36,691 nucleotides of DNA from Acidobacteriota bacterium (GTDB lineage Bacteria > Acidobacteriota > Terriglobia > Acidiferrales > UBA7541): contig QHZD01000050.1 of NCBI GenBank assembly GCA_003225315.1, forward strand, positions 1-36,691, written 5' to 3'. The notes beneath the pieces were generated by a model, which saw nothing but the letters and a program-made list of their open reading frames with translations, searched no databases and was not told the DNA's origin. The position numbers and the translations under genes were made by a program. Below are positions 2,638-18,304 of this stretch, piece by piece; within the stretch, counting starts at the first letter, position 1; each line of letters starts with the position of its first letter.

Positions 2638-4344
2638 TCAAGGTGCATAGCCGGGGCCGCGGAGCACTTTCCCTGGAAGAGCGCCGGTCATCATGGTCTG
2701 GTCGATGACCGGCACGCCGTTCACGAGCACATAATCCATCCCTTGCGACAATTGGTTGGGATATTCGAAAGTCGCGACGTCGTGAATCGCTGCAGGATCG
2801 AAGATGACGATGTCCGCGCACATTCCCGCCTTCAAGACGCCGCGGTCCGTGAAGCGCATGCGTTGCGCCGGCAAGGCAGTGAATTTGCGGATGGCGTCTT
2901 CCAAAGTGAGCTTGTGTTCTTCGCGGACATATTTGCGAAGGATGCGCGGGAACGTGCCGTAGGCGCGTGGGTGGGGATGTTCGCGCCCGAGGATGCCCTC
3001 GGGTGAAGTACCGGAGGAGTCGTTGTCGACGGAGACCCAGGGCTGCTGGAGCGCCAGGGAAACGTCCGGCTCGGACATGCCGAAGACGGCCACGGAAGTG
3101 AGTCCATGGTCTTCGATGAGAAGGTCGAAGAGCGCGTCCATCGGCTCCTTGTGCCAGGTTTTTGCGATCTCGGCGAGCGTTTTGCCTTGCAGGGGAAGCA
3201 ATTGGGAATTATGCACGACGCCGACGAGGACCGCTTCGGGGCCGGGAATCTCCTGCCATTCGTTGTCCCATCTATCGGAAGGTGTGAGCATGTCTGTGCG
3301 GATGCGGGCGCGCGTTGCAGGATCCTTCAAACGCTCGATGAGCTTGGTGTTGCCGCCGTTGTGCGCCCACGCAGGAACGAAAGCGGAGAAGTCGTTGAAC
3401 CAGGCGGTGTAGGCGTAAGTGTCCGCGGTGACGTCGAGCCCTTGCGCCCGGGCGGCGTTGATCTTCGCAACGACTTCCGGCATGTGTCCCCAGCTTGGTT
3501 TGCCGCCGACTTTCAAATGCCAAATTTCCACGGGGATGCGGGCTTCGCGACCGATGCGCAGTGCCTCGTCGATCGCTGCCAAAATGCCGGTGCCTTCATT
3601 GCGCATATGCGTGGCGTAAATGCCGCCGAACCTGGAAGCCTCCGCGGCGAGGGCGATCAGCTCTTCGGTCTTGGCGTACGGGGCCGGAGCGTATTCGAGA
3701 GAAGTGGAAACGCCCACGGCACCGTCGCGCATGGCCTGGCGCACGATTCCCCTCATTTGCTCCAGTTGCCCGAGTGTAGGCTGGACGTCGTTGTCGCCGA
3801 GTACCATGCGCCGGACGCGCGTGGCGCCTACGTAGCTGGCAATGTTGATCCCGGTATGCTGCTTTTCGAGGCGGGAAAAGTATTCGCGAAAAGTGCGCCA
3901 GTCGACGTGAATGCGATAGTGATCGTACTGTTCCTGATCGGCTTTGAGAATGGCGTCATTCAGTGGGGCGATCGATTCGCCCTCGCCGGTGATTTCCGTG
4001 GTGATTCCCTGATAGATTTTGGAGGGCACGCGCGGATCGACGAGGATTGTGTATTCCGATTGCCCGAGCATGTCGATGAAGCCCGGAGCGACGACCTGGC
4101 CGCGCGCGTCGATGGTGCGGGAGCGCGGCGCGTCATGAAGATTCCCGATGGCGGCAATCTTTCCGTCGCGAATTGCTAGATCGCCCGAATACCAGGGCGA
4201 GCCTGTGCCATCGATGATGTGGCCGTTGGTGATGACGATGTCGTAAGGCTGCTCCGTGCCCATGGATTCGACGGGAACGATACTGAAGAGCAAGACCACG
4301 GACAAGAAGATGGATTTCCCTCGATGGAAATTACCGTTCGTCAT
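2638..4344 (-). CDS. D-aminoacylase (N-acyl-D-amino-acid deacylase)-like amidohydrolase with altered metal site
   Basis: A 568-residue exported protein (signal peptide about residues 8-28) of the N-acyl-D-amino-acid deacylase branch of the amidohydrolase superfamily. Family signatures are PGFID (87-91), DPR..SKI.QGITTEI (103-118), ATHMR (H246), IWHLK (H276), VSVDNDSSG (D440/D442) and HPHPRAYGTFPR near 456-467. Characterised enzymes have an HxH after PGFID and a metal-binding Cys in a GNCG motif. Here these positions read LGQSE (93-97) and GEGES (120-124), so those ligands are absent while both later histidines remain. I recall this LGQSE variant as a recurring subgroup, but that is memory, not a search. 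ATG 4344 has GAGGAG just upstream. It starts 16 bases after the YtcJ-like gene, as part of the regulator operon. The likely role is removal of acyl groups from amino compounds in the periplasm; activity is unproven. Confidence 0.82.
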   Translation of the reverse strand: MTNGNFHRGKSIFLSVVLLFSIVPVESMGTEQPYDIVITNGHIIDGTGSPWYSGDLAIRDGKIAAIGNLHDAPRSRTIDARGQVVAPGFIDMLGQSEYTILVDPRVPSKIYQGITTEITGEGESIAPLNDAILKADQEQYDHYRIHVDWRTFREYFSRLEKQHTGINIASYVGATRVRRMVLGDNDVQPTLGQLEQMRGIVRQAMRDGAVGVSTSLEYAPAPYAKTEELIALAAEASRFGGIYATHMRNEGTGILAAIDEALRIGREARIPVEIWHLKVGGKPSWGHMPEVVAKINAARAQGLDVTADTYAYTAWFNDFSAFVPAWAHNGGNTKLIERLKDPATRARIRTDMLTPSDRWDNEWQEIPGPEAVLVGVVHNSQLLPLQGKTLAEIAKTWHKEPMDALFDLLIEDHGLTSVAVFGMSEPDVSLALQQPWVSVDNDSSGTSPEGILGREHPHPRAYGTFPRILRKYVREEHKLTLEDAIRKFTALPAQRMRFTDRGVLKAGMCADIVIFDPAAIHDVATFEYPNQLSQGMDYVLVNGVPVIDQTMMTGALPGKVLRGPGYAP

Positions 4345-4360: not shown

Positions 4361-6079
4361 TCATTTTGTATCAGCTTGAAAAACTAACCGTCCGCCCACA
4401 ATGGTCGTGACGACCTTTGTGGCGGCAATCTTATGCGGGTCGATGTCGAAGATATTCTGCGAAAGAATGATGAGGTCGGCAAGCTTACCGATTTCCAGCG
4501 AGCCTTCTGTTTTTTCACGGCGCCCGGCAAACGCCGCTCCGAGCGTGTAGCCGTCAATCGCTTGCGCCACGGTGAGCCGCTGCTTGGGGACGAAGCCTGC
4601 TTCTGGCTTACCTTCCAACGTTTGGCGCGTGACTGCAGTTTGAACTCCTTGCCACGGATCGAGAGTCACGACCGGCCAATCGCTGCCGAAGGCCAGGCGG
4701 CCTCCTGCATCAGCGATGGTCTTCCAGACCCACGCGCGGGAAGCACGATCGGGGCCGGCATTCCGCGCCCAAACGTCCAGCGTGTCGGCGTCCGGATAAG
4801 AATGGAGCGGCTGCATGCTGGCGATCACACCGAGCTTGCCGAATCGGGGAATGTCGGCCTGCGTGATCGTTTCAATGTGCTCGATGCGTGGCCGGCGATC
4901 GTCAGTGTGGTTGCGCGCCTCGGCATTTTCGTAAGCGTCAAGCGCGGTGCGCACGCCGTAGTCGCCAATCGCATGCGTGAAAAGCTGCAAGCCGCGCTTG
5001 TCCAATTCTGCGACTGCCGAATTGTAGTTCGCCGGCTCCCAGAAGAGCTTGCCTTTCAGGGAAGGATCGTCGCTGTACGGCTCGAGCATCGCCGCGGTGT
5101 GCGATTCGATAACGCCGTCCACCATGAATTTGACGGCACTGGCGTCAATCCAATCGTCGTGGAATTTTTTGCGGGCTTGTTCGATGGCTTTAAGATCCTG
5201 CGGGCGGAGCTGGGGAGGATTTAGAAAGTATGCGATGTACAAGCGGACGCTGAGATCGCCACGGCGTAGCATTTCATCGAAAAGATCGAGGACTTCAAAA
5301 TCGCCGCCGGCGCTGTGTACGCGCGTGATACCGCGCTCGTTCGCCCATTTCATGCCCGCGCGCAGCGCCAAAAGTTTCTCGGCACGAGACGGCTTTGGAA
5401 CGACTTTAGCGACCAGATCCTGAGCGGACTCCTTTAACGCGCCCGTGGCCTCACCGGTTTGCGCGTCGCGCACAATCGCGCCATTCGGAGGATCGGGAGT
5501 TTCCCGCGTGATTCCGGCCAACGCGAGAGCTTTCGAATTGGCCCAATAGGTATGCCCGTCAAACCCGTCGATGAAAACCGGGCGATCTGGAAAGATTTCG
5601 TCCAGATATTTCTTGTGCGGAAGCGCCTCCGCACCGAACATCGCGTAATTCCAGCCACGGCCGAGGACCCAGTCATTGCCAGGATGCCCAGAGGCATATT
5701 CGCGCAGGCGTTTTTGAATCTCGGCGGGATCCTTTGCGCCTTCGAGATTTACGCGCCCGAGGCTGAAGGAGCCGTCGATGAAATGAATGTGACAATCGAC
5801 GAAGCCCGGGAGCACTAATTTCCTGCCTGCGTCGATCACTTTTGTGCCTAGGCCGCGCATGCGCTCGACTACAGCGTCGTCACCGACCGCTACGATCTTG
5901 CCGCGATGAATGGCTACTGCCTGAGCCCATGGCTGCTGGGAGTTTTCCGTGTAAACACGGCCGTGAACGACGATGATGTCCGCCGGTTCGACGAGCCGGC
6001 CCTGCGCACACACCATCAAGGCAGCACAGAACAACAGACAGAGCGATTGAAGTACCCCGCGAAGAGGACGCATTCTCAT
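4361..6079 (-). CDS. Exported YtcJ-like amidohydrolase (Amidohydrolase_3 type)
   Basis: A roughly 572-residue protein with a signal peptide (hydrophobic VLQSLCLLFCAALMVCA near residues 9-25), so probably periplasmic. The metal-dependent amidohydrolase features are complete: PGFVDCHIH near residue 90-99 (HxH), AVKFMVDGVIESHTA in the middle (the Lys is a candidate bridging residue), FTHAIGD, RIEHIE, and FGSDWPV toward the end. These fit the YtcJ/exoenzyme regulatory AepA-like group, whose substrates are mostly unknown amides or ureides. I chose ATG 6079 with AGGG about nine bases upstream; GTG 6085 is possible. It lies 13-19 bases after the regulator stop and 16 bases before the D-aminoacylase-like gene, so the three form an operon. 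A role in hydrolysing the amide substrate of the island is inference. Confidence 0.87.
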   Translation of the reverse strand: MRMRPLRGVLQSLCLLFCAALMVCAQGRLVEPADIIVVHGRVYTENSQQPWAQAVAIHRGKIVAVGDDAVVERMRGLGTKVIDAGRKLVLPGFVDCHIHFIDGSFSLGRVNLEGAKDPAEIQKRLREYASGHPGNDWVLGRGWNYAMFGAEALPHKKYLDEIFPDRPVFIDGFDGHTYWANSKALALAGITRETPDPPNGAIVRDAQTGEATGALKESAQDLVAKVVPKPSRAEKLLALRAGMKWANERGITRVHSAGGDFEVLDLFDEMLRRGDLSVRLYIAYFLNPPQLRPQDLKAIEQARKKFHDDWIDASAVKFMVDGVIESHTAAMLEPYSDDPSLKGKLFWEPANYNSAVAELDKRGLQLFTHAIGDYGVRTALDAYENAEARNHTDDRRPRIEHIETITQADIPRFGKLGVIASMQPLHSYPDADTLDVWARNAGPDRASRAWVWKTIADAGGRLAFGSDWPVVTLDPWQGVQTAVTRQTLEGKPEAGFVPKQRLTVAQAIDGYTLGAAFAGRREKTEGSLEIGKLADLIILSQNIFDIDPHKIAATKVVTTIVGGRLVFQADTK

Positions 6080-6098
6080 TGGCACGTTACCCTGAAAA

Positions 6099-6929
6099 TC
6101 AGAATGTTGGCGGCGTGTTGATCCACAGCAGCCAGGTTTCCTTCCGACCGGGATTCTTCCAGCGGTGCGGAGTCGAACTCTCGAAATAAAGACTGTCGCC
6201 GGGCTTCAGATGATAATGCTCCTTGGTGTCGAGCCAGATCTCAAAATCTCCGCGCAGGACGTGCAGGAATTCCTCTCCTTCGTGCGAGTAGGATTCGCCG
6301 CTGCCGCCACTGGGTTTGATGCGGAAAAGATGAGGTTCCATCGCCGTGTTTCCCCAGGCAAGAAGTTCCATGCGCACGTCCGGTGTCGTCTCCAGGACTT
6401 TTCGCTGATTCGGGCGCACCAGGCGCGGATTATCGCCGGCAGTTTCGAAGAGGGAAAGAATGTTCGTGCTGTAAAAGCGCGCGATGCGGCGCAGCGTGGT
6501 GATCGAGGAGCGCATCTGGCCGCGCTCGAGAGCGCTGAGAAAACCAACGGAGACGCCGGTGGCGCGAGCCACTTGAGCCAGCGAAAGGCCGCGCCGCGTT
6601 CGCAAGCGCCGGAAACGCTGCCCGGGATGGAGCGAATTCTCCGCGGGAGCAGTGACAACTCCCTGGTGCTTGAGTACGTGGACGATGGCAGCAGGATTGA
6701 GACCGCGAGCCCGGCGCAGAAAAATCGCACGTTGCAGCAAGCGCACATCAGACTCAGTGAAGAGACGGTAGCGGCTCTGCGTGCGCTGCGGCGAGACGAG
6801 GCCCAGGGCTTCCCAGGCGCGCAACGCGGACGAAGATATGCCCACGCGGCGGGCTACTTCACTGATGCGCAGCAGGCGGCGGTCGCTTTGCTTTGCCGAT
6901 GCTTTGGATGAATTCTTTCTGCTTGACAC
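6099..6929 (-). CDS. Three-part regulator: MerR-type HTH, XRE-type HTH and cupin
   Basis: This 276-residue protein joins three modules. Residues about 19-90 are a MerR-type winged helix (ISEVARRVGISSSALRAWEALGLVSP, with the RYRLFTESDV wing region). Residues about 104-160 are an XRE/HTH_3 domain (RLRTRRGLSLAQVARATGVSVGFLSALERG). Residues about 200-272 are a cupin (SHEGEEFLHVLRG, then LKPGDSLYFESSTPHRW). XRE-cupin proteins such as PuuR sense small metabolites, often in amine or amino-acid catabolism; a second DNA-binding head is unusual. Start is GTG 6929. It leads the operon with the two amidohydrolases and is divergent from the TonB receptor. Its start codon overlaps the predicted -35 of the receptor promoter, so it probably controls both directions. 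The ligand is unknown. Confidence 0.9.
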   Translation of the reverse strand: MSSRKNSSKASAKQSDRRLLRISEVARRVGISSSALRAWEALGLVSPQRTQSRYRLFTESDVRLLQRAIFLRRARGLNPAAIVHVLKHQGVVTAPAENSLHPGQRFRRLRTRRGLSLAQVARATGVSVGFLSALERGQMRSSITTLRRIARFYSTNILSLFETAGDNPRLVRPNQRKVLETTPDVRMELLAWGNTAMEPHLFRIKPSGGSGESYSHEGEEFLHVLRGDFEIWLDTKEHYHLKPGDSLYFESSTPHRWKNPGRKETWLLWINTPPTF

Positions 6930-6951
6930 GGTCCCGGTCTTTCTCTAAGTT
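6923..6951 (+). promoter_or_regulatory. Divergent promoter of the TonB receptor gene
   Basis: A perfect TTGACA (6923-6928) is followed after 17 bases by a weak -10, TAAGTT (6946-6951). The -35 covers the first codon of the regulator gene. A strong -35 with a poor -10 is compatible with a promoter needing an activator such as a MerR-type protein, which often acts on altered promoter elements; that is inference. Confidence 0.45.
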
Positions 6952-6957
6952 TACAGG

Positions 6958-6986
6958 ATTATAGTAAGGTTTCAGGGGTATAGCAA
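6958..6986 (-). promoter_or_regulatory. Promoter of the regulator-amidohydrolase operon
   Basis: On the minus strand, TTGCTA (6986-6981) and a perfect TATAAT (6963-6958) are separated by 17 bases. The predicted start lies about 22 bases ahead of the GTG at 6929. It is interleaved with the oppositely oriented receptor promoter. Confidence 0.6.
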
Positions 6987-7035: not shown

Positions 7036-10000
7036 ATGAAGGTTCACGCACGATTCCGGCAGCATTCGACGTGTCGTCGCAGCATTTTATTCGCGATGGT
7101 TCTGACGATAGCAGTGTGCCTCGCGGCGCCACTTGGGGGCGCGCAGAGCACCGGCGGCCGCATCCGCGGCACGGTGATGGATACGAGCGGCGGGGCGATC
7201 GCATCCGCCAAAGTTACGTTGATCAACGAAGCTACGAACGCTACACGCGAAGTTCAGCCAGGCTCCAACGGCGAATACATCTTCCTCGAAGTGCCGGTGG
7301 GGACTTACGAGATCGACGCCACCAGCCAGGGCTTCAAGAAATCCACGCGCAAGGGCATCGTCCTCAATCTCAACGAAGTCGTAAGCGTTGACCTCACGCT
7401 GCAAGTTGGCGGCTCCACGGATGTGGTTGAAGTCACCGGCGCGCCTCCAGTAGTCGATACGACATCGACCCAATTAGGCGCCGTCGTCAACGAGCGCGCT
7501 GTAAGCCAGTTGCCGCTCAACGCTCGTGACACTTACCAATTACTGCAGTTGCAGCCCGGTGTTCAGGGCGTTGGGGGATCGGACCTTTTCTATGGGAGCA
7601 ATCAGTCTGGCGCTGTCTCCGTCAACGGAGGCCGCGGGCGCTCCAACAATTTTAATGTCAACGGTGGCGATGGCAACGATTTGTTTGTGAACTCCCCCGG
7701 GATTCAGCCCACTCCCGACAGCATCGCGGAATTCCGCGTCCTGACAAATACGTTCGATGCCGAATACGGGCGCAACTCCGGCGCTGTCATTAACGTGGTC
7801 ACCAAGTCGGGAACCAACGGCTTCCATGGCAACGTATACGAATTCCTGCGCAACCAGTTATTCAACGCCAAAGGCTTCCTAGACCTGCGGCGGCCCGATG
7901 ACAAGCAAAACCAGTTCGGCGGGACATTTGGTGGGCCGATCAAGAAGGACCGGACTTTCTTCTTCGCGTCTTATGAAGGGCGCCGCGTGGTCCATGGAAT
8001 TTCTTCCGATCCCGTCGTGGTTCCAACGGCTGCCGAGCGTAACGGAGACTTTTCCGCTACGCCGTTTGATCCTAGCGCTACCATTCAGGACCAGCTGGTT
8101 GCGGATGTTTTCAACGCCAGGTGCAATGTCGGCGCCTCAGTCGGCGACGCTTACGCTACGCTGTTTCCCGGCAGCATAATTCCGACGAGCTGCCTGGACC
8201 CGGTCGCAGTTGACCTCATGAAACGGTACGTGCCCTGTCCTAATGCCGACCCCAAGTGTTCCAACCTCACACCAGGCGCCGCCAACACTTTCCGTTCTAT
8301 CCCTAATGACCATTCCCATGCCAATCAGTTCACGTTGAAACTAGACCACAGGATCAACGACAAGCAGAATCTGAACATCTACTACTACTTCAACGATTCG
8401 TTCGACTCGCAACCGTTTACAAGATTCCAGGCGCCTACCCCAAATCTGCTGCAGGGATTCGGCAATAACAACGCCACTCGCGCGCAACAAATTAATGTTT
8501 CGCATACCTGGACCATCAACCCGGTTGTAGTAAACGAATTGCGGCTTAGCTATTTCCGCGAGGCGCAAGGAACATTCCTTCACCCCCAGCACACCAACCT
8601 GGTGACCGATTCCTGCAGTTCCGCGGTGTCCTCGATCTGCTTTACCGGCACCACCGATGTGCCCAGTGTGATCCCACCAAACCCCAAGCTCGGGATCACG
8701 CCAGGTCTCGGCGCGAATCGCGAGGGCGTGCCGTTTATCACCATTTCGGGTGGATTTACCATCGGCAATGACTTTGAAGGCGAGTTGCCGCAGAAGGGAA
8801 ACACCTATCAACTTAACGACAGCTTGACCAAGGTAATGGGCAAGCACACCACTAAGTTCGGCGTCGACCTCAGAAAACAACGATTCTTCCAGACGTTGTT
8901 CTTCGACCCCAACGGTGATTACAGCTACTTCGGCGGCGGTCTCAACGATCCAATCGCGCTGGACCTCAATGGAAATCAGAACCTGTTCCCCAACTATTTG
9001 ATTGGCCTTCCCGACTCGTATTTGCAGGGGTCAGCCCAAAGTGAGGACGTGCGCGGCAACTCCGTCTACCTGTTTGCGCAAGATAGTTGGAAAATCCGGC
9101 GGAATCTGACCCTCAACTATGGATTGCGTTGGGAGTATAACCAGCCACTCTATGATGCGGGCTTGCGTTACCAGACCTTCCGGCCGGGGCAAGCTACCAC
9201 GACTTATCCGTGCCAACTCTCGGCGGCAAGCCAAGCGAACCTCGGATATCCTGATACCAACTGCAACCCTAACGGTTCTGCCGCGGCCGTATTTCCGCTG
9301 GGCCTTGTCGTGCCTGGAGACAAGGGTGTTCCGAAAGGGCTCACCGACAGTTACTACAAGTCTTTTGCTCCCCGGATTGGAATTGCCTGGGATCCAAAGG
9401 GAAATGGCAAGACTACAGTCCGCGGCGGATGGGGACTCTTTTACAACCCGATCGAACAGTTGGTGCTTGAGCAGTTTCAGGCTGAGCCTCCCTTCGGCGG
9501 CAGCTCTCTCCTTTCTGAGGGCCTCTTTAGCACCCCATTTGTGCTTCAAGATCGAACGGTAGCTCCCAATCCCTTTAACGGGATTCTCAGTCCGCCACAC
9601 GGAACCCCGACAGACTGGTCCGCCTTCCGCCCTATCTTGTTGTTTGGGGAACTTGAACCCAAGCTACGCTCGCAGTACACCGCGCAATACAACCTCGGGA
9701 TCCAGCATCAGCTGACAAAGGATATGGTGCTCTCGGTGGGTTACGTGGGGTCACAGGGACACCGCCTGCTCGCCACCCACGATATCAATTTTGGAAACGC
9801 GCAAACCTGCATCGACCTGCAAAACATTTCAGACTACTACACGAATGTCGCGCCCAACGCAGCTCTAGCATCCGATTACGCGTGCGGACCGTTCTTCGCG
9901 GACAGCTCTTTCTTCTTGCCTGCGGGTTCAGTGCCAGCAGGGTTCACGGTGCACTTACCGTACGGCTCGGTTCCGACCATCGGTCCTGGTAATCCGGATA

Positions 10001-10842
10001 CCACTCTAGTCGGCTTGCGTCGCTATAGTTCGCCAATTTGCCAGCCCACCACCGGCGTAGGCTGTCCCTCCGATGGCGTACCGGTATTCTCCAGCATCTT
10101 CGCCCAAGACACAGTCGCGAACTCCAGTTACAACTCATTGCAAGCATCGCTGGAGCGGAGAATGAGCCATGGCTTGCAATTCGAGTTGGCCTACACTTTC
10201 AGCAAGTCCATCGACAACGCCTCCAGCTTTGAGAACATTCTAAAGCCCATTTGCGACCGTTGTAATCGCTCGCTCTCCCTCTTCGACGCACGGCACCGCT
10301 TCGTGATCAGCTACCTTTGGTCGCTTCCGGTTCCCGAATACGATGGTATGAAGGGGAAGATCATGAATGGATGGCAGGTTTCGGGCATCACTACCTTCCA
10401 GACAGGTTTCCCCATTCGACTGGAGTCCAGCAACGACTCGGAACTGGAAAACAGCTTTGACTTCGAGCTGCCTGGTAAACCGGATCTGATTGCCCCATTC
10501 CGCACCTTCAATCCGAGAACCCACGGTGGCCTCTATTTCGACCCCAATTCGTTTGCGCTCCCTGTCCAGGATTCCAATTCGACCCCATTGCAGTTGCTGG
10601 GCAATGCGCCGCGGACTATTTGCTGCGGACCAGGAATCTCCAACTTCGACTTCTCCGTGCAAAAACTCACTCCCTTGAGCGAGCGAACGCACCTCGAGTT
10701 CCGCGCTGAGTTTTTTAACATATTCAACCATACGCAGTTTCTGAACCCGGACGGCAGTATCACGGATGGAGCGGATTTCGGTCGCGTCAAACACACTCGC
10801 GACCCCCGGCAGGTGCAGTTCGCGCTGAAGTTTCATTTTTAG
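7036..10842 (+). CDS. Oar-like TonB-dependent outer-membrane receptor 1
   Basis: A 1268-residue outer-membrane protein of the large acidobacterial Oar/TonB-dependent type. A signal peptide (hydrophobic LFAMVLTIAVCLAAPLGG) is followed by a carboxypeptidase-regulatory-like beta-sandwich (GRIRGTVMDTSGGAIASAKV through SVDLTLQVGG). Next come a plug (QLPLNARDTYQLLQLQPGV, NNFNVNGGDGND, VLTNTFDAEYGRNSGAVINVVTKSG) and a long beta-barrel ending QVQFALKFHF with a terminal aromatic residue. ATG 7036 is chosen because AAGGGGTG precedes it; a TTG 13 codons upstream gives a poorer start. It is divergent from the regulator and upstream of the amine/GABA genes, so it may import the island's substrate across the outer membrane, probably a peptide-like or acylated compound. 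The substrate is inference only. Confidence 0.9.
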   Translation: MKVHARFRQHSTCRRSILFAMVLTIAVCLAAPLGGAQSTGGRIRGTVMDTSGGAIASAKVTLINEATNATREVQPGSNGEYIFLEVPVGTYEIDATSQGFKKSTRKGIVLNLNEVVSVDLTLQVGGSTDVVEVTGAPPVVDTTSTQLGAVVNERAVSQLPLNARDTYQLLQLQPGVQGVGGSDLFYGSNQSGAVSVNGGRGRSNNFNVNGGDGNDLFVNSPGIQPTPDSIAEFRVLTNTFDAEYGRNSGAVINVVTKSGTNGFHGNVYEFLRNQLFNAKGFLDLRRPDDKQNQFGGTFGGPIKKDRTFFFASYEGRRVVHGISSDPVVVPTAAERNGDFSATPFDPSATIQDQLVADVFNARCNVGASVGDAYATLFPGSIIPTSCLDPVAVDLMKRYVPCPNADPKCSNLTPGAANTFRSIPNDHSHANQFTLKLDHRINDKQNLNIYYYFNDSFDSQPFTRFQAPTPNLLQGFGNNNATRAQQINVSHTWTINPVVVNELRLSYFREAQGTFLHPQHTNLVTDSCSSAVSSICFTGTTDVPSVIPPNPKLGITPGLGANREGVPFITISGGFTIGNDFEGELPQKGNTYQLNDSLTKVMGKHTTKFGVDLRKQRFFQTLFFDPNGDYSYFGGGLNDPIALDLNGNQNLFPNYLIGLPDSYLQGSAQSEDVRGNSVYLFAQDSWKIRRNLTLNYGLRWEYNQPLYDAGLRYQTFRPGQATTTYPCQLSAASQANLGYPDTNCNPNGSAAAVFPLGLVVPGDKGVPKGLTDSYYKSFAPRIGIAWDPKGNGKTTVRGGWGLFYNPIEQLVLEQFQAEPPFGGSSLLSEGLFSTPFVLQDRTVAPNPFNGILSPPHGTPTDWSAFRPILLFGELEPKLRSQYTAQYNLGIQHQLTKDMVLSVGYVGSQGHRLLATHDINFGNAQTCIDLQNISDYYTNVAPNAALASDYACGPFFADSSFFLPAGSVPAGFTVHLPYGSVPTIGPGNPDTTLVGLRRYSSPICQPTTGVGCPSDGVPVFSSIFAQDTVANSSYNSLQASLERRMSHGLQFELAYTFSKSIDNASSFENILKPICDRCNRSLSLFDARHRFVISYLWSLPVPEYDGMKGKIMNGWQVSGITTFQTGFPIRLESSNDSELENSFDFELPGKPDLIAPFRTFNPRTHGGLYFDPNSFALPVQDSNSTPLQLLGNAPRTICCGPGISNFDFSVQKLTPLSERTHLEFRAEFFNIFNHTQFLNPDGSITDGADFGRVKHTRDPRQVQFALKFHF

Positions 10843-10996: not shown

Positions 10997-12379
10997 ATGC
11001 ACGACGCACTACAAAAAGAAATCGCCACGTACGAAAAGCGCACGCCGAAATCCGCTGCTGCCCACAAGCGGGCCCTCGAACGCATTCCGCTTGGTGTTGC
11101 CAGCAACTATCGCCACTATGAACCCTATCCGCTTTTCGTGAAGGATGGAAAGGGCAGCCGTATTCACGACGTCGATGACAATGAATACATTGACCACAAT
11201 CTTTGTTTCGGTGCGCTGATGGCCGGGCACTGCCACCCCGCCGTCGTCAAGGCGGTCGAACAGAAGCTGCACGAAGGAACAACCTTCGGCATGCCTCATG
11301 ACCAGGAATGGGAACTCGCGGAGGAAATTTGCAAGCGCTATCCGGTAGAAATGGTGCGTTTCGGCTCCAGCGGGACGGAAGTCACCATGCACGCCTGCCG
11401 CATTGCGCGCGCCGCAACCGGCCGAGACAAGATCCTGAAGTTCGAAGGCTGCTATCACGGCTTGCATGACACTGCACTGGTCAGCGTCAAGCCCAAGGCG
11501 GAAGACTACGGCGATCCGGACGCACCCAATTCCGTACCCGGCGGTGGTGGCGTGCCGAAAGCCTCCCTCGCCAACGTCATCGTCGCGGCTTTCAACAATC
11601 TGGCCAGCGTCGAGCGCCGCTTCAAGGAGAATCCCGGCCAAATCGCCGGCATTATTCTCGAGCCCATTATGATGAACGTCGGACTGTGCATGCCGCAGCC
11701 CGGGTTCCTGCAAGGGCTGCGCGACATCTGCACGAAGAACGGCGCGCTGCTGATCTTCGACGAAGTCAAAACCGGCGCCAAGCTCGCCTGGGGCGGCGCC
11801 AGCGAATTCTTCGGCGTGAAGCCGGACATGATCTGCCTTGCCAAATCCATAGGCGGCGGCTTGCCGCTGGGTGCCTTCGGCGCGAGCCGCACGGTGATGG
11901 ATTTGATTTCACAGCACAAGGTTTTTCACGGCGGCACCTACAACACCAACCGCGTCGCCATGTCTGCCGGTCTCGCGACGTTCCGTGAAGTCCTCACGCG
12001 CGAAAACTACGCGCACGTGGACAAACTCAGCAAAAAACTGACCGAAGGCTACCGCGCCATTGTCAAGAAGTCCGGCTTGCAAGCCTATGTCGCGGGCGCC
12101 GGCGTCAATGGCGCGCTGATGCTTTATCCGCAGGAAATTCGCAACTACCGCGACTGGACCAAGATTGACGTCGATCTCTGGCGCCACTACTGGTTCGGCA
12201 TGGTCAATCGCGGCGTGCTGGCTCAGCCGTATTGGTGGGATGAGCAGTGGACCATCTCTGTTCAGCACACCGAAGCGGACATTGATAAGCATCTTGCGGT
12301 GTTCGAGGAAGTCGCGCCTGCCCTTGCAAAAGCACAGCAGCAGCGCGGCGCGGCATTTGTGGGCGCGGCTGGGCACTAG
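10997..12379 (+). CDS. Class III aminotransferase, glutamate-1-semialdehyde aminotransferase-like
   Basis: A 460-residue PLP enzyme of fold type I, class III. Visible sites are GSSGTEVT (123-130, phosphate contact), CYHG (152-155), FDEVKTG with D255 (pyridine nitrogen) and AKSIGGGLPLGAFG with K283, the Schiff-base lysine. Sequence style is closest to HemL (GSA aminomutase) and its catabolic relatives such as beta-phenylalanine and D-phenylglycine aminotransferases. It is longer than HemL (about 430), and FDEVKTGAK replaces the usual FDEVMTGFR, so a tetrapyrrole role is unlikely here. It heads five genes ending in gabD-like, with 20 bases to the permease. Expected role: first transamination of an amine or amino acid. 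Substrate is uncertain: putrescine, a beta-amino acid or a D-amino acid all fit the context. Confidence 0.85.
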   Translation: MHDALQKEIATYEKRTPKSAAAHKRALERIPLGVASNYRHYEPYPLFVKDGKGSRIHDVDDNEYIDHNLCFGALMAGHCHPAVVKAVEQKLHEGTTFGMPHDQEWELAEEICKRYPVEMVRFGSSGTEVTMHACRIARAATGRDKILKFEGCYHGLHDTALVSVKPKAEDYGDPDAPNSVPGGGGVPKASLANVIVAAFNNLASVERRFKENPGQIAGIILEPIMMNVGLCMPQPGFLQGLRDICTKNGALLIFDEVKTGAKLAWGGASEFFGVKPDMICLAKSIGGGLPLGAFGASRTVMDLISQHKVFHGGTYNTNRVAMSAGLATFREVLTRENYAHVDKLSKKLTEGYRAIVKKSGLQAYVAGAGVNGALMLYPQEIRNYRDWTKIDVDLWRHYWFGMVNRGVLAQPYWWDEQWTISVQHTEADIDKHLAVFEEVAPALAKAQQQRGAAFVGAAGH

Positions 12380-12399: not shown

Positions 12400-13875
12400 A
12401 TGGAGAAAACGCCATTGGCGAACGAGGTTACCGCTACCCCGTCAGCACCCGTGACACAAGAAGCGCCGCACCTGCGCCGCGTGCTGGGCCGCTGGGACCT
12501 CGTTCTGCTTTTTGTCGTTGCCGTTTTCAATCTGAACGTCGTTCCGTCCATCGCCGCCAATGGCGGCGTAACGGTTTGGCTGTGGATCATCTCGCTCGCG
12601 CTTTTTTTCTGGCCGCAGGGCATCGCCGTGGTTGAGCTTGCGCATCGCTACCCCGGCGAAGGCGGCGTGTACCTCTGGGCTAAGGAAGTTTTTGGAGACT
12701 TCCACGGTTTTCTTTCCGGCTGGTGCTACTGGACCAACAACATGATGTACGTTCCCACCATCATGTTGTACTTCGTCGGTGTGTTCGTGTTTGTCCTTGG
12801 AGCCGGCCATGAATCGCTCGCGGAGAACAAATCCTTCACGTTAACGGCTTCCTTGATTTTGTTGTTGCTGCTGGTGGTGCTGAATATTGTTGGCCTCGGC
12901 ATCGGGAAGTGGGTGAACAATCTCGGCGCGATCGGCACTTTTGTTGCCGCCACTGTTCTGATCGGCCTGGGAATCGTAATCTGGCTGCGTTTCGGCACGT
13001 CCGTGACGGCGGCGGATTTCCGTATTTCCGCAAGCCCTGGTTTCGTCTTGAATTCCTTCGGCGTGATTTGTTTCGGTCTCGTGGGCTTGGAGCTCGCTTC
13101 GGTGATGGGCGACGAGATCGAGAGTCCGCAAAAGACTCTTCCTGGGGCCGTCGCCTGGGGCGGTCTCCTATCCGGTTTGCTTTACGTTGGGGCGACATTG
13201 ACGCTGCTCATTGCCGTAACGAAGAGCGACATCAGCGTACTGCAAGGCATCGTGCAGGCTGTTGGCCACATGGCCAGCCGGGTCGGGGCCGGATGGATCG
13301 TCGCGCCCTTTGCATTCCTCCTGAGCATCTCGATCGCGGGAATTGGCTCCGCGTGGCTCGGTGGCTCGGCGCGTATTCCTTTTGTCGCCGGCCTCGATTC
13401 GTACATGCCCGCCTTTCTTGGCAAGATTCATCCGAAGTACGCCACGCCGTATGCCGCTCTAATCGTCCACGCGGCCGTATCGCTGGTTCTGGTGGTGATC
13501 AATTTTTCGCTTTCCGGCGCGGGCGTGCAGGAGACGTTTCAGAAGTTGCTCTCCCTCGCCGTCGTGCTGCAGTTGATCCCCTTTCTATACATGTTCGGCG
13601 CGCTGATGAAAATCGCCTCCAGCGATTCTTTCGTAAAGGGCCGCTACGGCAAGACCACGCTGATCCTTGCCGGCTTCAGCGGATTCACAACCACAGGCTT
13701 GGGAATTGCCCTGGCATTTTTCCCGGCGCAGCAGATTAAATCGCTCCTATCCTATGAAATCTGGATGTTTGGGGGCACGTTGCTTTTCATCGGCCTTGCG
13801 GCGTTTTTCTTTTTTATTTACGGCCGCCGTAGAGCCGCGCGGAAATTGGCTGCGGCGTCCGCGCCGGTATTGTGA
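12400..13875 (+). CDS. APC-family amino acid/amine permease
   Basis: A 491-residue inner-membrane transporter with about 12 hydrophobic segments, typical of the APC superfamily. The N-terminus is short and cytoplasmic; TM1 begins at about residue 33. Family-like landmarks are PGEGGVYLWAKEVFG (in the loop after TM2), FGLVGLELASVMGDEIESPQKTLPGAV (TM6 and the following loop) and ARIPFVAGLDSYMPAFLGKIHPKYATPYAAL (between TM8 and TM9). Such permeases bring amino acids, GABA or polyamines into the cell, often by proton symport or exchange. It is tightly packed between the GSA-aminotransferase-like gene and the aldehyde dehydrogenase (20 bases each side), so it should import the compound those enzymes degrade. 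The exact substrate cannot be assigned from sequence. Confidence 0.9.
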   Translation: MEKTPLANEVTATPSAPVTQEAPHLRRVLGRWDLVLLFVVAVFNLNVVPSIAANGGVTVWLWIISLALFFWPQGIAVVELAHRYPGEGGVYLWAKEVFGDFHGFLSGWCYWTNNMMYVPTIMLYFVGVFVFVLGAGHESLAENKSFTLTASLILLLLLVVLNIVGLGIGKWVNNLGAIGTFVAATVLIGLGIVIWLRFGTSVTAADFRISASPGFVLNSFGVICFGLVGLELASVMGDEIESPQKTLPGAVAWGGLLSGLLYVGATLTLLIAVTKSDISVLQGIVQAVGHMASRVGAGWIVAPFAFLLSISIAGIGSAWLGGSARIPFVAGLDSYMPAFLGKIHPKYATPYAALIVHAAVSLVLVVINFSLSGAGVQETFQKLLSLAVVLQLIPFLYMFGALMKIASSDSFVKGRYGKTTLILAGFSGFTTTGLGIALAFFPAQQIKSLLSYEIWMFGGTLLFIGLAAFFFFIYGRRRAARKLAAASAPVL

Positions 13876-13895: not shown

Positions 13896-15377
13896 ATGTC
13901 GAGCACTGCGAAAACAATCGTTCGAGCCTATCAAAACTACATCAATGGCCAATGGGTTAAAAGTTCTTCCGGTGAAATGTTTCCGGTCTACGATCCTTCC
14001 ACCGAAGAGGTGATCGCGCACGTCGCGTCTGGCACGGCCGCCGATGTCGATAGCGCCGTCAAAGCCGCGCGCACCGCTTTCGACTCCGGCCCCTGGCGAC
14101 AGACCACTGCCGCCGACCGCGGCCGCATCCTCTACAAGTTTGCGGAGAAAATTCGCGCCAACGCTGCCCAACTTGCCGAGCTCGAATGCCGGAATTCCGG
14201 CAAGCCCATCGTCGAAGCCGAGTACGACATCGCCGATGCCGCAACTTGTTTCGAATATTACGCCGGCCTCGCGAACAAAGTTCTCGGGCACGTCAATCCC
14301 GTTCCCGCAAACGCCCTGAGTTTTACTTTGCGCGAACCCGTCGGCGTCGCTGGACAAATTATTCCCTGGAATTATCCGTTGGTCATGGCTTCTTGGAAGC
14401 TCGCTCCGGCCATCGCTGCAGGCTGCACCTGCGTTCTCAAGCCCGCGGAGCAAACGCCGCTCACCGTGATGGAAGTCGCCGGTTGGTTTGAAGAATTGGG
14501 CCTGCCTCCCGGCGTCGTCAACATCGTGAACGGTTTTGGCGAAACGGCGGGAGCCGCGCTCGTTGCGCATCCTGGCGTGGACAAAATCGCCTTCACGGGC
14601 AGCGCGGCCGTCGGAAAAATGATCGTCAAGAGCGCAGCGGACACTCTCAAGCGCGTCACGCTCGAACTCGGCGGCAAATCCCCCAACATTTTCTTTGATG
14701 GCGCGGACTGGGAAGCCGCTGTCGATGGCGCCCTCTTCGGCGTCTTTATCAATCAGGGCGAAGTCTGTTCCGCGGGCAGCCGCATTCTCGTCGAAAAGAA
14801 AATCTACTCCAAGTTCCTCGAAGCTATGACCGAAAAAGCTAAGCGCATCAAGCTCGGCGCGCCGCTCGAACGCGAAACCAAGATGGGTCCGCTGGTCAGC
14901 AAGGAGCAATACGACCGCGTCAGCTCCTACCTCGAACTCGGCAAGAAGGAAGCGAAAGTGGCCATCGGCGGCGGGCGCCCGAAGCAGTTCGGCAAGGGCT
15001 ATTATGTCGAGCCGACCATCTTCTACGACGTGGATAACTCAGCTCGCATCTCCCGCGAAGAAATTTTCGGCCCCGTCGCTTCGGTGATTCCCTTCGAAGG
15101 CGAGCCGGACGCCATTCGTATTGCCAACGACACGCCCTACGGCCTGGCCGCCGCAGTGTGGACGCGAGACATTTACAAAGCCTTCCGCGTCGTGAAGTCC
15201 CTACGCGCCGGCATCGTCTGGGTCAATCACATGCAACCGACCTACGTCGAGGCGCCGTGGGGCGGCTACAAACAGTCCGGTTTTGGCCGCGAACTTGGTC
15301 CCTGGGGCCTCGAAGAATACCTCGAAACCAAACAGGTTTTCGTCAATCTCGACGAAACGCCGATCGGCTGGTACTAG
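13896..15377 (+). CDS. Betaine-aldehyde-dehydrogenase-like aldehyde dehydrogenase
   Basis: A 493-residue NAD(P)-dependent aldehyde dehydrogenase of normal family length. Catalytic residues are visible: N159 in IPWNYP, E257 in LELGGKSP, and the nucleophile C291 in NQGEVCSAGSR. The cofactor loop FTGSAAVG is at 233-240. NQGEVCSAGSR and the C-terminal ETPIGWY are characteristic of the betaine/aminoaldehyde dehydrogenase branch (ALDH9/GbsA-like), which oxidises omega-amino aldehydes such as 4-aminobutanal as well as betaine aldehyde. Between an aminotransferase plus permease and gabT-gabD homologs, oxidation of 4-aminobutanal to GABA is the most economical reading, but no choline or betaine gene is near to test the alternative. 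Gaps are 20 bases upstream and 23 bases downstream. Confidence 0.9.
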   Translation: MSSTAKTIVRAYQNYINGQWVKSSSGEMFPVYDPSTEEVIAHVASGTAADVDSAVKAARTAFDSGPWRQTTAADRGRILYKFAEKIRANAAQLAELECRNSGKPIVEAEYDIADAATCFEYYAGLANKVLGHVNPVPANALSFTLREPVGVAGQIIPWNYPLVMASWKLAPAIAAGCTCVLKPAEQTPLTVMEVAGWFEELGLPPGVVNIVNGFGETAGAALVAHPGVDKIAFTGSAAVGKMIVKSAADTLKRVTLELGGKSPNIFFDGADWEAAVDGALFGVFINQGEVCSAGSRILVEKKIYSKFLEAMTEKAKRIKLGAPLERETKMGPLVSKEQYDRVSSYLELGKKEAKVAIGGGRPKQFGKGYYVEPTIFYDVDNSARISREEIFGPVASVIPFEGEPDAIRIANDTPYGLAAAVWTRDIYKAFRVVKSLRAGIVWVNHMQPTYVEAPWGGYKQSGFGRELGPWGLEEYLETKQVFVNLDETPIGWY

Positions 15378-15400
15378 ATTTCAGAGCAAGGAAAACAAAT

Positions 15401-16750
15401 ATGTCTACAATTCAGATTCGCACGGAAATACCGGGACCCAAATCCCGCGCACTGATCGCGCGCCGAGAAGCCGCCATTCCCCGCGGCCCTTCGAACGCCA
15501 CGCCGGTTTTCGCCGCTCGCGCCGAAGGCGCCACCATCGAGGACGTCGACGGCAATCGGTATCTCGATTTTGCCGGCGGCATCGGCTGCCTCAATATTGG
15601 CCATCGCTCTCCCCGCGTGCTCTCCGCGATCCGCGAGCAGATCGAGAAGCACTTGCATCTCTGTTTCGCCGTCACTCCCTACGAAAGCTACGTCGCCGTG
15701 GCCGAAAAACTGAACGCCCTAGCGCCCGGCAATTTCCCCAAGAAAACCATCCTCGTCAACTCTGGCGCCGAAGCCATCGAAAACTCCATCAAGATCGCCC
15801 GCGCCTACACTAAGCGTCCCGCCGTCATCTGTTTCGAAGATGCCTTCCATGGCCGCACGCTTCTCACCATGTCGCTCACCAGCAAAACGCATCCTTATAA
15901 AGCCGGCTTCGCGCCGTTCGCCAGCGACATCTACCGCATCCCTTTCGCTTATCCTTACCGTGGCGAAAAAGGTGCCACCGCCGAAACTTTCGCGCACCAC
16001 CTCGAAGACGCCTTCAAGCGTTCGGTCGCTCCCGAATCCGTCGCCGCGGTGATCGCCGAGCCTGTCCTCGGCGAAGGCGGCTTCATCGTTCCTCCGCGCG
16101 ACTACTTCAAGCTGCTGCAAAACATTTGCCGCCAGCACGGCATTCTCTTTATCGCCGACGAAGTGCAATCCGGCTTCGCCCGCACCGGCAAATGGTTCGC
16201 CTCCGAACATTTCGGCATCGACCCTGATTTGATCACCATGGCGAAATCCCTCGGCGGTGGCATGCCCATCGCCGCGGTCACCGGCCGCGCGGAAATCATG
16301 GACGCCCCCGGCGTTGGCTCTCTCGGCGGCACCTACTGCGGACATCCTCTTTCATGCGCCGCCGCGCTCGCGGCCATCGAAACCATAGAGAAGGACGGTC
16401 TGCTCGCGCGCTCCACGGCTATCGGCAAACGTTTTGAAGAGCGCGCTCTGGCCTGGCAGAAAAAATGGTCGTTGATTGGCGACGTTCGGGGTCTCGGCGG
16501 CATGTGCGCCATCGAATTGGTGCGCGACGCGCAGACACGCGAGCCTGCCGACACCGAAACCAAAGCCATTGCCAAGTATTGCTACGAGCACGGCCTCATC
16601 ACCATTACCGCCGGCACTTTCAACAATGTGATTCGCATCCTCGTTCCGCTGGTAGTCACCGACGGGCAGTTCGACGAAGGTCTCGGTGTCATCGAAGCCG
16701 CGCTCGCCTCCGTCGTGGAACAGAAACGGGCCGCGCTTTCCCACGCTTAG
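15401..16750 (+). CDS. gabT: 4-aminobutyrate aminotransferase-like class III aminotransferase
   Basis: A 449-residue PLP enzyme of the GabT/ornithine-type class III group. Diagnostic parts are NSGAEAIENSIKIAR (120-134), DAFHGRTLLTMSLTSK (147-162), IADEVQSGFARTGKWFASEHFG (251-272) and MAKSLGGGMPIAAVTGR (280-296), with K282 as the Schiff-base lysine. GABA aminotransferase moves the amino group of GABA to 2-oxoglutarate, giving succinate semialdehyde. The ATG at 15401 is preferred, with AAGGAAA upstream; a longer frame running back into the aldehyde dehydrogenase is not credible. The downstream neighbour is a GabD-like dehydrogenase that would use its product. Members of this group also act on 5-aminovalerate and other omega-amino acids, so the symbol is given by context. 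Confidence 0.82.
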   Translation: MSTIQIRTEIPGPKSRALIARREAAIPRGPSNATPVFAARAEGATIEDVDGNRYLDFAGGIGCLNIGHRSPRVLSAIREQIEKHLHLCFAVTPYESYVAVAEKLNALAPGNFPKKTILVNSGAEAIENSIKIARAYTKRPAVICFEDAFHGRTLLTMSLTSKTHPYKAGFAPFASDIYRIPFAYPYRGEKGATAETFAHHLEDAFKRSVAPESVAAVIAEPVLGEGGFIVPPRDYFKLLQNICRQHGILFIADEVQSGFARTGKWFASEHFGIDPDLITMAKSLGGGMPIAAVTGRAEIMDAPGVGSLGGTYCGHPLSCAAALAAIETIEKDGLLARSTAIGKRFEERALAWQKKWSLIGDVRGLGGMCAIELVRDAQTREPADTETKAIAKYCYEHGLITITAGTFNNVIRILVPLVVTDGQFDEGLGVIEAALASVVEQKRAALSHA

Positions 16751-16763
16751 TGCGACGCCTAGT

Positions 16764-16787
16764 AGGACAGGCATTCTTGCCTGTCCT
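16764..16787 (+). repeat. Perfect intercistronic hairpin, REP-like
   Basis: AGGACAGGCA (16764-16773) and TGCCTGTCCT (16778-16787) form an uninterrupted 10-bp stem with a TTCT loop, followed by TGTT. It lies in the 60-base gap between the gabT-like and gabD-like genes. It could be a repeated extragenic palindrome, an mRNA-stabilising hairpin or a leaky terminator. I have an impression of similar sequences in other acidobacterial genomes, but this is memory only. Confidence 0.65.
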
Positions 16788-16810
16788 TGTTGAGAAACAG
16801 GAGTTCAACC

Positions 16811-18304
16811 ATGCAAAACACCATCACAAAAATCGAAAGCCCAGCTTCCCAGCTCAAAGACCCCCGGCTCTTCCGCGAAGCCTGTTACATCGACGGCCAG
16901 TGGATCCAGGCATCGTCGGGCCAAACGCTCAAAGTGGACAATCCCGCCACTGGCGAAATCATCGGCACCGTCCCAAAGCTCACCGGCGCAGAAACTCGCC
17001 AAGCCATCGAAGCCGCCAATCGCGCCTTCCCCGCATGGAGCAAGAAAACCGCCAAGGAGCGCGCCGCCGTTCTTCGCCGCTGGTTCGATCTCATGATGGC
17101 CAACCAGGACGACCTCGCCCGCCTCATGACCATCGAGCAAGGCAAGCCCCTCAGCGAATCACAGGGAGAAGTCGCTTACGCCGCCGCGTTCCTCGAATGG
17201 TTTGGCGAAGAAGCCAAGCGCATTTACGGCGACACCATTCCGCCGCATCAAGCGGACAAAAGAATCGTCGTCATCAAGCAACCCATCGGCGTCGTCGCGT
17301 GCATCACGCCGTGGAATTTTCCCCTGGCGATGATCACGCGCAAAGCCGGCCCTGCCATCGGCGCGGGTTGTACCGTCGTGCTCAAGCCCGCTTCGCAAAC
17401 TCCGTTTTCGGCCCTCGCCCTCGCGGAGCTTGCCGAGCGCGCCGGTGTTCCCAAGGGCGTGCTCAACATCGTCACTGGATCCGCAACCGAAATCGGCGCT
17501 GAGCTGACTTCCAACCCCATCGTCCGCAAGCTCTCCTTCACCGGCTCAACCGAAATTGGAAAAATCCTCATGGCCCAGTGCGCGGGCACTATCAAAAAGC
17601 TCTCTCTTGAACTCGGCGGCAACGCCCCCTTCATCGTCTTTGACGACTCCGACCTGGACGCCGCCGTCGAAGGCGCAATCGCTTCCAAGTACCGAAATAC
17701 AGGACAGACCTGTGTTTGCACGAATCGTCTTCTCGTGCAGGACTCCGTCTACGACGTTTTCGCCGCCAAGCTTGCGCTCGCGGTGAAAGCGTTGAAGCCC
17801 GCTCCAGGCCTGGAACCCGGTGCCACGCAGGGTCCGCTCATTGACGCCGCCGCCGTCCAAAAAGTCGAAAGCCACATCCGCGACGCCCAGTCCAAAGGAG
17901 CAAGAGTCCTCGTCGGCGGCCATCGCCACGCTCTCGGTGGCCGCTTCTTTGAGCCCACCGTCCTGACCGATGTCACTCCGCAAATGGCCATGGCTCGCGA
18001 GGAAACGTTTGGCCCGGTCGCCCCGCTCTTCCGCTTCAAAACCGAAGCGGAAGCCATCGCGCTTGCCAACGACACTGAATTCGGACTCGCCGCCTATTTC
18101 TACGGCCGCGACATTGCCCGCGTCTGGCGCGTCGCCGAAGCGCTCGAATACGGCATTGTCGGCATCAACAGCGGCCTCATTTCCACGGAAGTCGCCCCCT
18201 TCGGCGGCGTAAAGGAATCCGGCCTCGGCCGCGAAGGCTCCAAGTACGGCATCGACGAATTCGTGGAAATCAAATATATGTGCTTCGGCGGCATCACCGC
18301 CTAA
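16811..18304 (+). CDS. gabD: Succinate-semialdehyde dehydrogenase-like aldehyde dehydrogenase
   Basis: A 497-residue aldehyde dehydrogenase closest in style to GabD. Catalytic residues are N169 in ITPWNFP, E267 in LELGGNAP and C301 in NTGQTCVCTNR; the CxC pair 301/303 in this context is typical of GabD-type succinate-semialdehyde dehydrogenases. FTGSTEIGK (243-251) is the cofactor loop. It would oxidise succinate semialdehyde to succinate, completing GABA breakdown. The ATG at 16811 is chosen for AGGAG seven bases upstream; a frame starting 8 codons earlier lacks this. It is the last gene of the run. The flanking gabT-like gene supports the function, though glutarate semialdehyde is also a known substrate in the family. 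Confidence 0.87.
   Translation: MQNTITKIESPASQLKDPRLFREACYIDGQWIQASSGQTLKVDNPATGEIIGTVPKLTGAETRQAIEAANRAFPAWSKKTAKERAAVLRRWFDLMMANQDDLARLMTIEQGKPLSESQGEVAYAAAFLEWFGEEAKRIYGDTIPPHQADKRIVVIKQPIGVVACITPWNFPLAMITRKAGPAIGAGCTVVLKPASQTPFSALALAELAERAGVPKGVLNIVTGSATEIGAELTSNPIVRKLSFTGSTEIGKILMAQCAGTIKKLSLELGGNAPFIVFDDSDLDAAVEGAIASKYRNTGQTCVCTNRLLVQDSVYDVFAAKLALAVKALKPAPGLEPGATQGPLIDAAAVQKVESHIRDAQSKGARVLVGGHRHALGGRFFEPTVLTDVTPQMAMAREETFGPVAPLFRFKTEAEAIALANDTEFGLAAYFYGRDIARVWRVAEALEYGIVGINSGLISTEVAPFGGVKESGLGREGSKYGIDEFVEIKYMCFGGITA

Follow-up and report, generated by a model that had tools for sequence, protein, structure and literature searches.

The MerR-XRE-cupin regulator encoded in the 36,691-nucleotide stretch of DNA from a soil acidobacterium analysed here (the window) is probably, at roughly 60%, a local ligand-responsive autorepressor of GABA-type amine catabolism, which would block two face-to-face promoters from a conserved inverted repeat upstream of its own gene. 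Repression of the adjacent genes and its relief by a pathway metabolite are what we infer from the position of this site and from the neighbouring genes, and by analogy with known regulators. The architecture itself is not unique; new here is the conserved upstream inverted repeat. For an architecture recurrent in acidobacteria and rhizobia, the analysis supplies partner genes, candidate ligands and a site predicted to bind the protein, and the question of why a repressor keeps two unrelated DNA-binding heads is made testable. The matter is also relevant to rhizobia, where a relative of the regulator is often found head-to-head with gabT, a gene reportedly highly expressed in R. leguminosarum bacteroids, to judge from the title of a paper. 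The features of the window are collected in Table 1.

Table 1. Regulator, neighbouring genes and predicted control elements in the window (positions on the 36,691-nucleotide stretch).
Feature	Position	Strand	Basis
Amidohydrolase 3 family protein	2638–4344	−	NF006560, 213.9 bits, under the cut-off of 340
Amidohydrolase 3 family protein, likely cotranscribed with the regulator	4361–6085	−	Domain match
MerR-XRE-cupin regulator, 276 aa	6099–6929	−	Open reading frame, GTG start
Cupin_2 sensor, residues 201–270	6120–6329	−	Pfam Cupin_2
XRE/Cro HTH_3 domain, residues 107–155	6465–6611	−	Pfam HTH_3
MerR-type winged helix, residues 21–88	6666–6869	−	Pfam MerR_1
Predicted receptor-promoter −35 (TTGACA, divergent), over the regulator start codon	6923–6928	+	Fixed offset in relatives
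Predicted receptor-promoter −10 (weak; TAAGTT, some relatives having TAACCT), over the right operator arm	6946–6951	+	17–18-nt spacing to TTGACA
Predicted operator AACCTTAC-TATAATCCT-GTAAACTT, 25-bp inverted repeat with 9-bp spacer	6947–6971	−	Conserved upstream box
Regulator −10 box (TATAAT), at the centre of the operator	6958–6963	−	Consensus scan
Regulator −35 box (TTGCTA), 17-bp spacer	6981–6986	−	Consensus scan
Receptor-like outer-membrane protein, divergent	7036–10842	+	CarboxypepD_reg and OMP_b-brl_4
Class-III aminotransferase, GSA-aminomutase-like	10997–12379	+	Profile matches
APC amino-acid/GABA-antiporter-like permease	12400–13875	+	Profile matches
Aldehyde dehydrogenase, betaine/aminobutyraldehyde-type	13896–15377	+	Under the cut-offs of the models listed
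4-Aminobutyrate transaminase GabT	15245–16750	+	TIGR00700, 590.7 bits, cut-off 506.65
Succinate-semialdehyde dehydrogenase GabD	16787–18304	+	NF008415, 863.5 bits, cut-off 828

Domain architecture and conservation of the regulator

By its domain matches, the regulator is an XRE-cupin-type protein with a MerR head. The MerR_1 (E 8.8e-17, 61.4 bits against a cut-off of 21.6), HTH_3 (E 6.2e-15, 55.4 bits against 23) and Cupin_2 (E 3.5e-18, 65.5 bits against 27.2) models of Pfam are all matched above cut-off in a single chain, which bears out the original prediction of two HTH domains and a cupin sensor in one protein of 276 residues. Among the NCBIfam models, the best match of residues 97–276 is PuuR (NF007408; 67.2 bits, far under the cut-off of 211), and the best matches of the MerR part are FtsR and HspR, both under cut-off (44.8 bits against 105 for HspR), so that by these models the regulator is an equivalog of neither PuuR nor HspR. 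In members of the MerR family, the winged helix is typically followed by a long helix for dimerisation. In an AlphaFold2 model built from 18 close sequences, which is of modest quality (mean pLDDT 63.8) and weak in its cupin part, helices are placed at residues 59–75 and 79–88, followed by a low-confidence linker to the XRE domain at 103, with no long helix between the end of the MerR part (around residue 88) and this point.

Conservation was analysed in an alignment of 42 sequences, consisting of the window protein and 41 relatives from Acidobacteriota and Alphaproteobacteria. These were drawn from 51 proteins, of which eight close relatives were dropped as redundant and a further one (L067) was excluded because its frame hits stop 47 residues into the match. 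MerR_1, HTH_3 and Cupin_2 are matched in 42 of the 42 sequences; sequences with a single HTH, which the original prediction named (as homologues with only one functional HTH) as the case that would speak against it, do not appear among them, although the matches to both HTH models indicate presence and not function. In the MerR head, R37, W39, E40, G43, R49, R55 and L86 are invariant; the XRE domain has just two such residues, R110 and E135. The invariant residues of the cupin include Y214, H216, G218, E219, E220, F221 and H255, and the C-terminal W-x-N-T-P-x-T-F is invariant as well. Where cupins usually have the first His of their metal motif, the regulator has a Tyr.

Over all pairs of the 42 sequences, the identity is 0.60 for the MerR HTH helices, 0.49 for XRE helices 2–3 and 0.58 for the cupin (0.50 and 0.45 for the entire MerR and XRE domains, respectively), whereas among same-class relatives the MerR and XRE helices are equally conserved (0.87 vs 0.88). 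From these helix identities, both heads look maintained, the MerR head being somewhat stricter over long distances, although the difference is modest. The equal conservation within the class would also suit a PuuR/PauR-like repressor in which the XRE head alone binds DNA and the role of the MerR domain is now confined to dimerisation or contacts with proteins, and the XRE-cupin proteins PsdR and PauR are described in PMC7901475 as binding palindromic motifs, read by the authors of that study as support for dimers. However, six MerR residues between R37 and R55 are invariant against two in the XRE domain, and the 'ERG' of the XRE helix in the window protein reads ERTS in 17 of the 18 alphaproteobacterial members, which makes DNA binding by the XRE head alone rather unlikely.

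Genomic context

On the minus strand, a point left unstated in the original prediction, the regulator is likely the first gene of an amidohydrolase operon, the successive genes being separated by gaps of 13 and 16 bp. The receptor and amine-catabolism genes run in the opposite direction; among them, gabT lies about 8 kb from the regulator, and the true start of gabT is probably at about 15.4 kb. The profile matches of these neighbours agree with the original placement of the regulator between divergent operons for amidohydrolases and for uptake and amine catabolism. As to the class-III aminotransferase, it passes the cut-off of the glutamate-1-semialdehyde aminomutase subfamily model NF000818 (406.4 bits against 398) and remains under that of the GntE transaminase. 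Beyond the amidohydrolases, a radical-SAM protein is encoded at positions 145–1197 of the window; in one relative locus (L014), an 86%-identical radical-SAM protein is encoded downstream of the regulator, and the amidohydrolase is missing there.

The gene of the receptor adjoins that of the regulator in every full-length close relative (17/17), the aminotransferase is seen in 14, the remaining three loci ending before it, and an amidohydrolase lies directly downstream of the regulator in 12; for these counts, the examined stretch stops short of the gabT region. The order receptor, aminotransferase, permease and dehydrogenase recurs in all three same-class loci with longer flanks. A GabT-like gene, mostly several kb off, is present in the flank of 8 of the 11 more distant acidobacterial loci, two of the three others being short contigs. 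Among the 19 selected alphaproteobacterial loci, 13 show a head-to-head arrangement of gabT and the regulator gene and six do not, and gabD follows gabT in 12 of these 13. Ten of the 21 GabT-like proteins were scanned with TIGR00700, and eight passed the cut-off, with those of L059 and L060 just below it. On the basis of these neighbour counts, GABA-type catabolism is the most recurrent partner of the regulator, the amidohydrolases being accessory.

The predicted operator and the two promoters

A box upstream of the regulator gene is common to the close relatives amid otherwise diverged DNA, and it has the form of an inverted repeat, AACCTTRC-N9-GYAAGGTT. In the window, the right arm is imperfect, 6 of its 8 positions matching the left arm, while three same-class loci (L048–L050) carry the perfect repeat AACCTTGC-N9-GCAAGGTT. 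At up to three mismatches, the element is present in a single copy in the genome of the window. A 27-nt pattern made from regulator-linked loci was searched at no more than one mismatch in 299 genomes of the class, with the reversed pattern as control: it was found in 38 genomes, and the control in none of the matches listed. All of the 38 element-bearing genomes are among the 46 with the regulator, and all but one of the 39 copies are found upstream of a regulator gene at a distance of no more than 200 bp (38/39), an association (Fisher p ~1e-40) in which the kinship of the genomes is uncorrected and the pattern itself derives from regulator-linked loci. The element is missing, at the same threshold, from 13 of the 51 regulator matches of the class sample, corresponding to eight genomes and five second copies; one of these 13 genes is truncated where its contig stops.

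In the consensus scan, the promoter of the regulator (TTGCTA-17-TATAAT) has a score of 10/12. Of the 28 distinct loci, only 10 have a −35 that matches TTGACA in at least four of six positions, and the conservation of the −10 is not independent support, since the reading of the loci required TATAAT. On the other side, TGTCAA, the complement of TTGACA, is found 43–44 nt from the start of the element in all 28 distinct loci (41 rows read, from which 13 duplicates were removed). In L024, L105 and L106, the codon at this position has changed from a GTG or ATG to another one, and two codons upstream there is an ATG, and in L048–L050 the protein match starts about 100–165 nt after the start of the element; TGTCAA is kept in each of these loci. 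As it is fixed even where the start codon has moved, TGTCAA is probably retained as the −35 of the divergent receptor promoter. The consensus scan did not pick up the receptor promoter, its −10 included. According to this predicted arrangement, a protein sitting on the inverted repeat would block both promoters.

The same arrangement bears on the promoter twisting put forward in the original prediction, considered here as a MerR-type activator that would distort the DNA through its MerR head upon ligand binding to the cupin and switch on the receptor/gab operon. MerR activators typically bind a dyad inside a long promoter spacer of 19–20 bp. Here, Pfam does identify a true MerR winged helix, and the receptor promoter, with its consensus TTGACA and poor −10, could need activation; nevertheless, the repeat has its centre at the −10 of the regulator and overlaps the predicted −10 of the receptor instead of falling between a −35 and a −10, the predicted spacers measure 16–18 bp (a normal 17 bp for the regulator), and the modest model (18 sequences, pLDDT 63.8) shows no long helix of the MerR dimerisation kind ahead of residue 103, where the XRE domain starts. 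Therefore, the twisting mechanism finds no match in the predicted promoters, and an activator appears quite improbable.

Further regulon sites in the genome of the window were sought with a looser pattern, ACCTTRC-N9-GYAARST, at up to two mismatches. It gave 200 matches against 424 for the reversed control and is thus not enriched, the known site being the only exact match among those listed. Within the class, an odd copy of the element was observed in genome G491 (L119, G491:C40:24000-34000, near 4943–4969), upstream of another receptor-like gene. No regulator gene was found in the surrounding 10 kb, a regulator paralogue is located 15.9 kb away, and a class-III aminotransferase is encoded a few kb off. 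This receptor-side copy keeps the same TGTCAA spacing, as read by eye, and for this reason suggests a target acting in trans.

As regards the Alphaproteobacteria, TTGCATTTTTTCTGCAA is found upstream of the regulator at up to four mismatches in 14 of the 19 loci, which are related to each other and from which the pattern was drawn, and a version with five mismatches (counted by hand) is found in L045. The 13 gabT-linked loci are all among the 15 with a TTGCATTTTTTCTGCAA-like site, the other two being L062 and L075. In L044, L047 and L078, the box occurs twice in tandem upstream of the regulator, at a distance of 33 bp. These tandem copies, like the extra element of G491 beside a receptor gene, would suit a protein whose heads each read a site of their own, the contact with two kinds of sites suggested in the original prediction, or bridge two copies by looping. 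Against this, only one kind of conserved site is seen, in a single copy in the genome of the window, and such a two-site function is the least probable of the explanations weighed here.

The rhizobial arms fit a CTTGC-N9-GCAAG core, as does the acidobacterial site. When YTTRC-N9-GYAAR was scored in the 260 bp upstream of each regulator against shuffled sequences, p<0.05 was reached in 3 of the 19 alphaproteobacterial, 1 of the 11 distant acidobacterial and all three same-class loci. Of the spacer lengths compared, 9 bp had the highest mean score for the alphaproteobacterial loci (8.58, the next being 8.21), while for the distant acidobacterial loci 9 and 6 bp tied at 8.18. Because the single-locus shuffles are rarely significant, the sharing of the operator across phyla, plausible as it is, is suggestive only.

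Proposed mechanism and comparison with known regulators

In the autorepressor model that is preferred here, a dimer, probably held together by the cupins, would bind the 25-bp inverted repeat. RNA polymerase would thereby be kept both from the regulator/amidohydrolase promoter, the −10 of which lies inside the repeat, and from the divergent receptor/aminotransferase promoter, the predicted −10 of which lies over the right arm. When a metabolite of the amine pathway binds to the cupin, whether putrescine, GABA or another, related omega-amino acid, the protein would come off the DNA and both operons could be transcribed. The MerR head would be the likelier main reader of the repeat, with the XRE head probably adding contacts or positioning the dimer. 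A broader version of this model, in which a family of two-headed repressors crosses the phyla, the MerR and XRE heads both reading one operator (YTTRC-N9-GYAAR) that silences face-to-face promoters until a GABA/polyamine-type ligand enters the cupin, is possible but doubtful.

The model draws on the XRE-cupin proteins of Pseudomonas, which, according to PMC7901475, are repressors that bind beside their own genes; among them, PauR controls polyamine genes and gabT2. It is by this analogy, with repression of neighbouring genes and the case of PauR, that local autorepression relieved by a metabolite of the amine pathway is the most likely reading. PuuR of E. coli and PauR of P. aeruginosa share with the regulator an XRE HTH and a C-terminal cupin, but in these proteins the XRE domain is at the N-terminus and there is no other DNA-binding domain, whereas in the regulator MerR_1 is placed ahead of it. 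From a functional perspective, PuuR and PauR repress polyamine/GABA catabolic targets (gabT2 in the case of PauR; PMC7901475), and the proposed targets of the regulator are likewise of GABA type; likely autoregulation is a further point in common.

With respect to the other head, HspR is a MerR-family heat-shock repressor with a MerR-type head like that of the regulator, and its HAIR operator, given as CTTGAGT-N7-ACTCAAG in PMC6102357, has a CTTG half-site in a wide inverted repeat that resembles the site proposed here, although it differs from AACCTTRC-N9-GYAAGGTT and the target genes are different. The likeness of the half-sites and the higher conservation of the MerR helices over the 42 sequences both favour the MerR head as the main reader. 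To our knowledge, HspR has neither an XRE domain nor a cupin. GABA or related catabolism is also controlled by regulators of the MocR/GabR type, by a PucR-type GabR and by a sigma54-type GabR, which are described with other domain architectures.

A further likeness concerns the 'MerR family transcriptional regulator' of the rhizobial gabT loci (for example in Sinorhizobium and Shinella), which is about 42% identical over 93% of the query. It has the same three domains and a divergent gabT; its neighbours are gabT and gabD, with no receptor or amidohydrolase match in four loci, and its XRE helix is altered.

Distribution of the architecture

No other full-length match to the regulator was found in the genome of the window, the nine further matches being all partial. 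The scan of genome contigs gave 19 loci, namely the 17 full-length close relatives, L025, which is cut by a contig end, and L027, which matches the MerR part only; among the actinobacterial genomes, L027 and its genome (G396) gave only partial matches. With the own genome counted, the regulator is matched in 15 of the 396 genomes of the phylum sample (E<=1e-30) and in 46 of the 299 of the class sample (E<=1e-40). Moreover, 464 plasmid records match, and in 127 of them a single place accounts for 80% or more of the query, the identity being 41.6–42.9% among the best 40 rows. With a Shinella member as query, 121 plasmid records were found (E<=1e-25), including 82 of Sinorhizobium, 15 of Shinella and 9 of Ensifer. 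Of eight annotated family loci, one is labelled 'cupin domain-containing protein', the other seven carrying the name 'MerR family transcriptional regulator'. Given this recurrence across the samples and these annotations, MerR-XRE-cupin is, as far as domain matches tell, a recurrent architecture under a generic name, and it is more widespread than had been implied by the original prediction. No paper on the MerR-XRE-cupin architecture was found in the open-licence literature.

Some members are found in other settings. A three-domain relative on plasmid p5 of Paracoccus sp. SCSIO 75233 (L077), 38% identical in the alignment, has as neighbours an M20 peptidase, a protein with an adenine-deaminase C-terminal domain and a cyclase-family protein, which constitute a different catabolic setting. 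A second group, encoded on Sinorhizobium plasmids (L066 and L076) and in Shinella (L075), is 34–35% identical to the window protein; in these three loci gabT is not head-to-head with the regulator, and the regulators of L075 and L076 adjoin electron-transfer flavoprotein and folate one-carbon genes.
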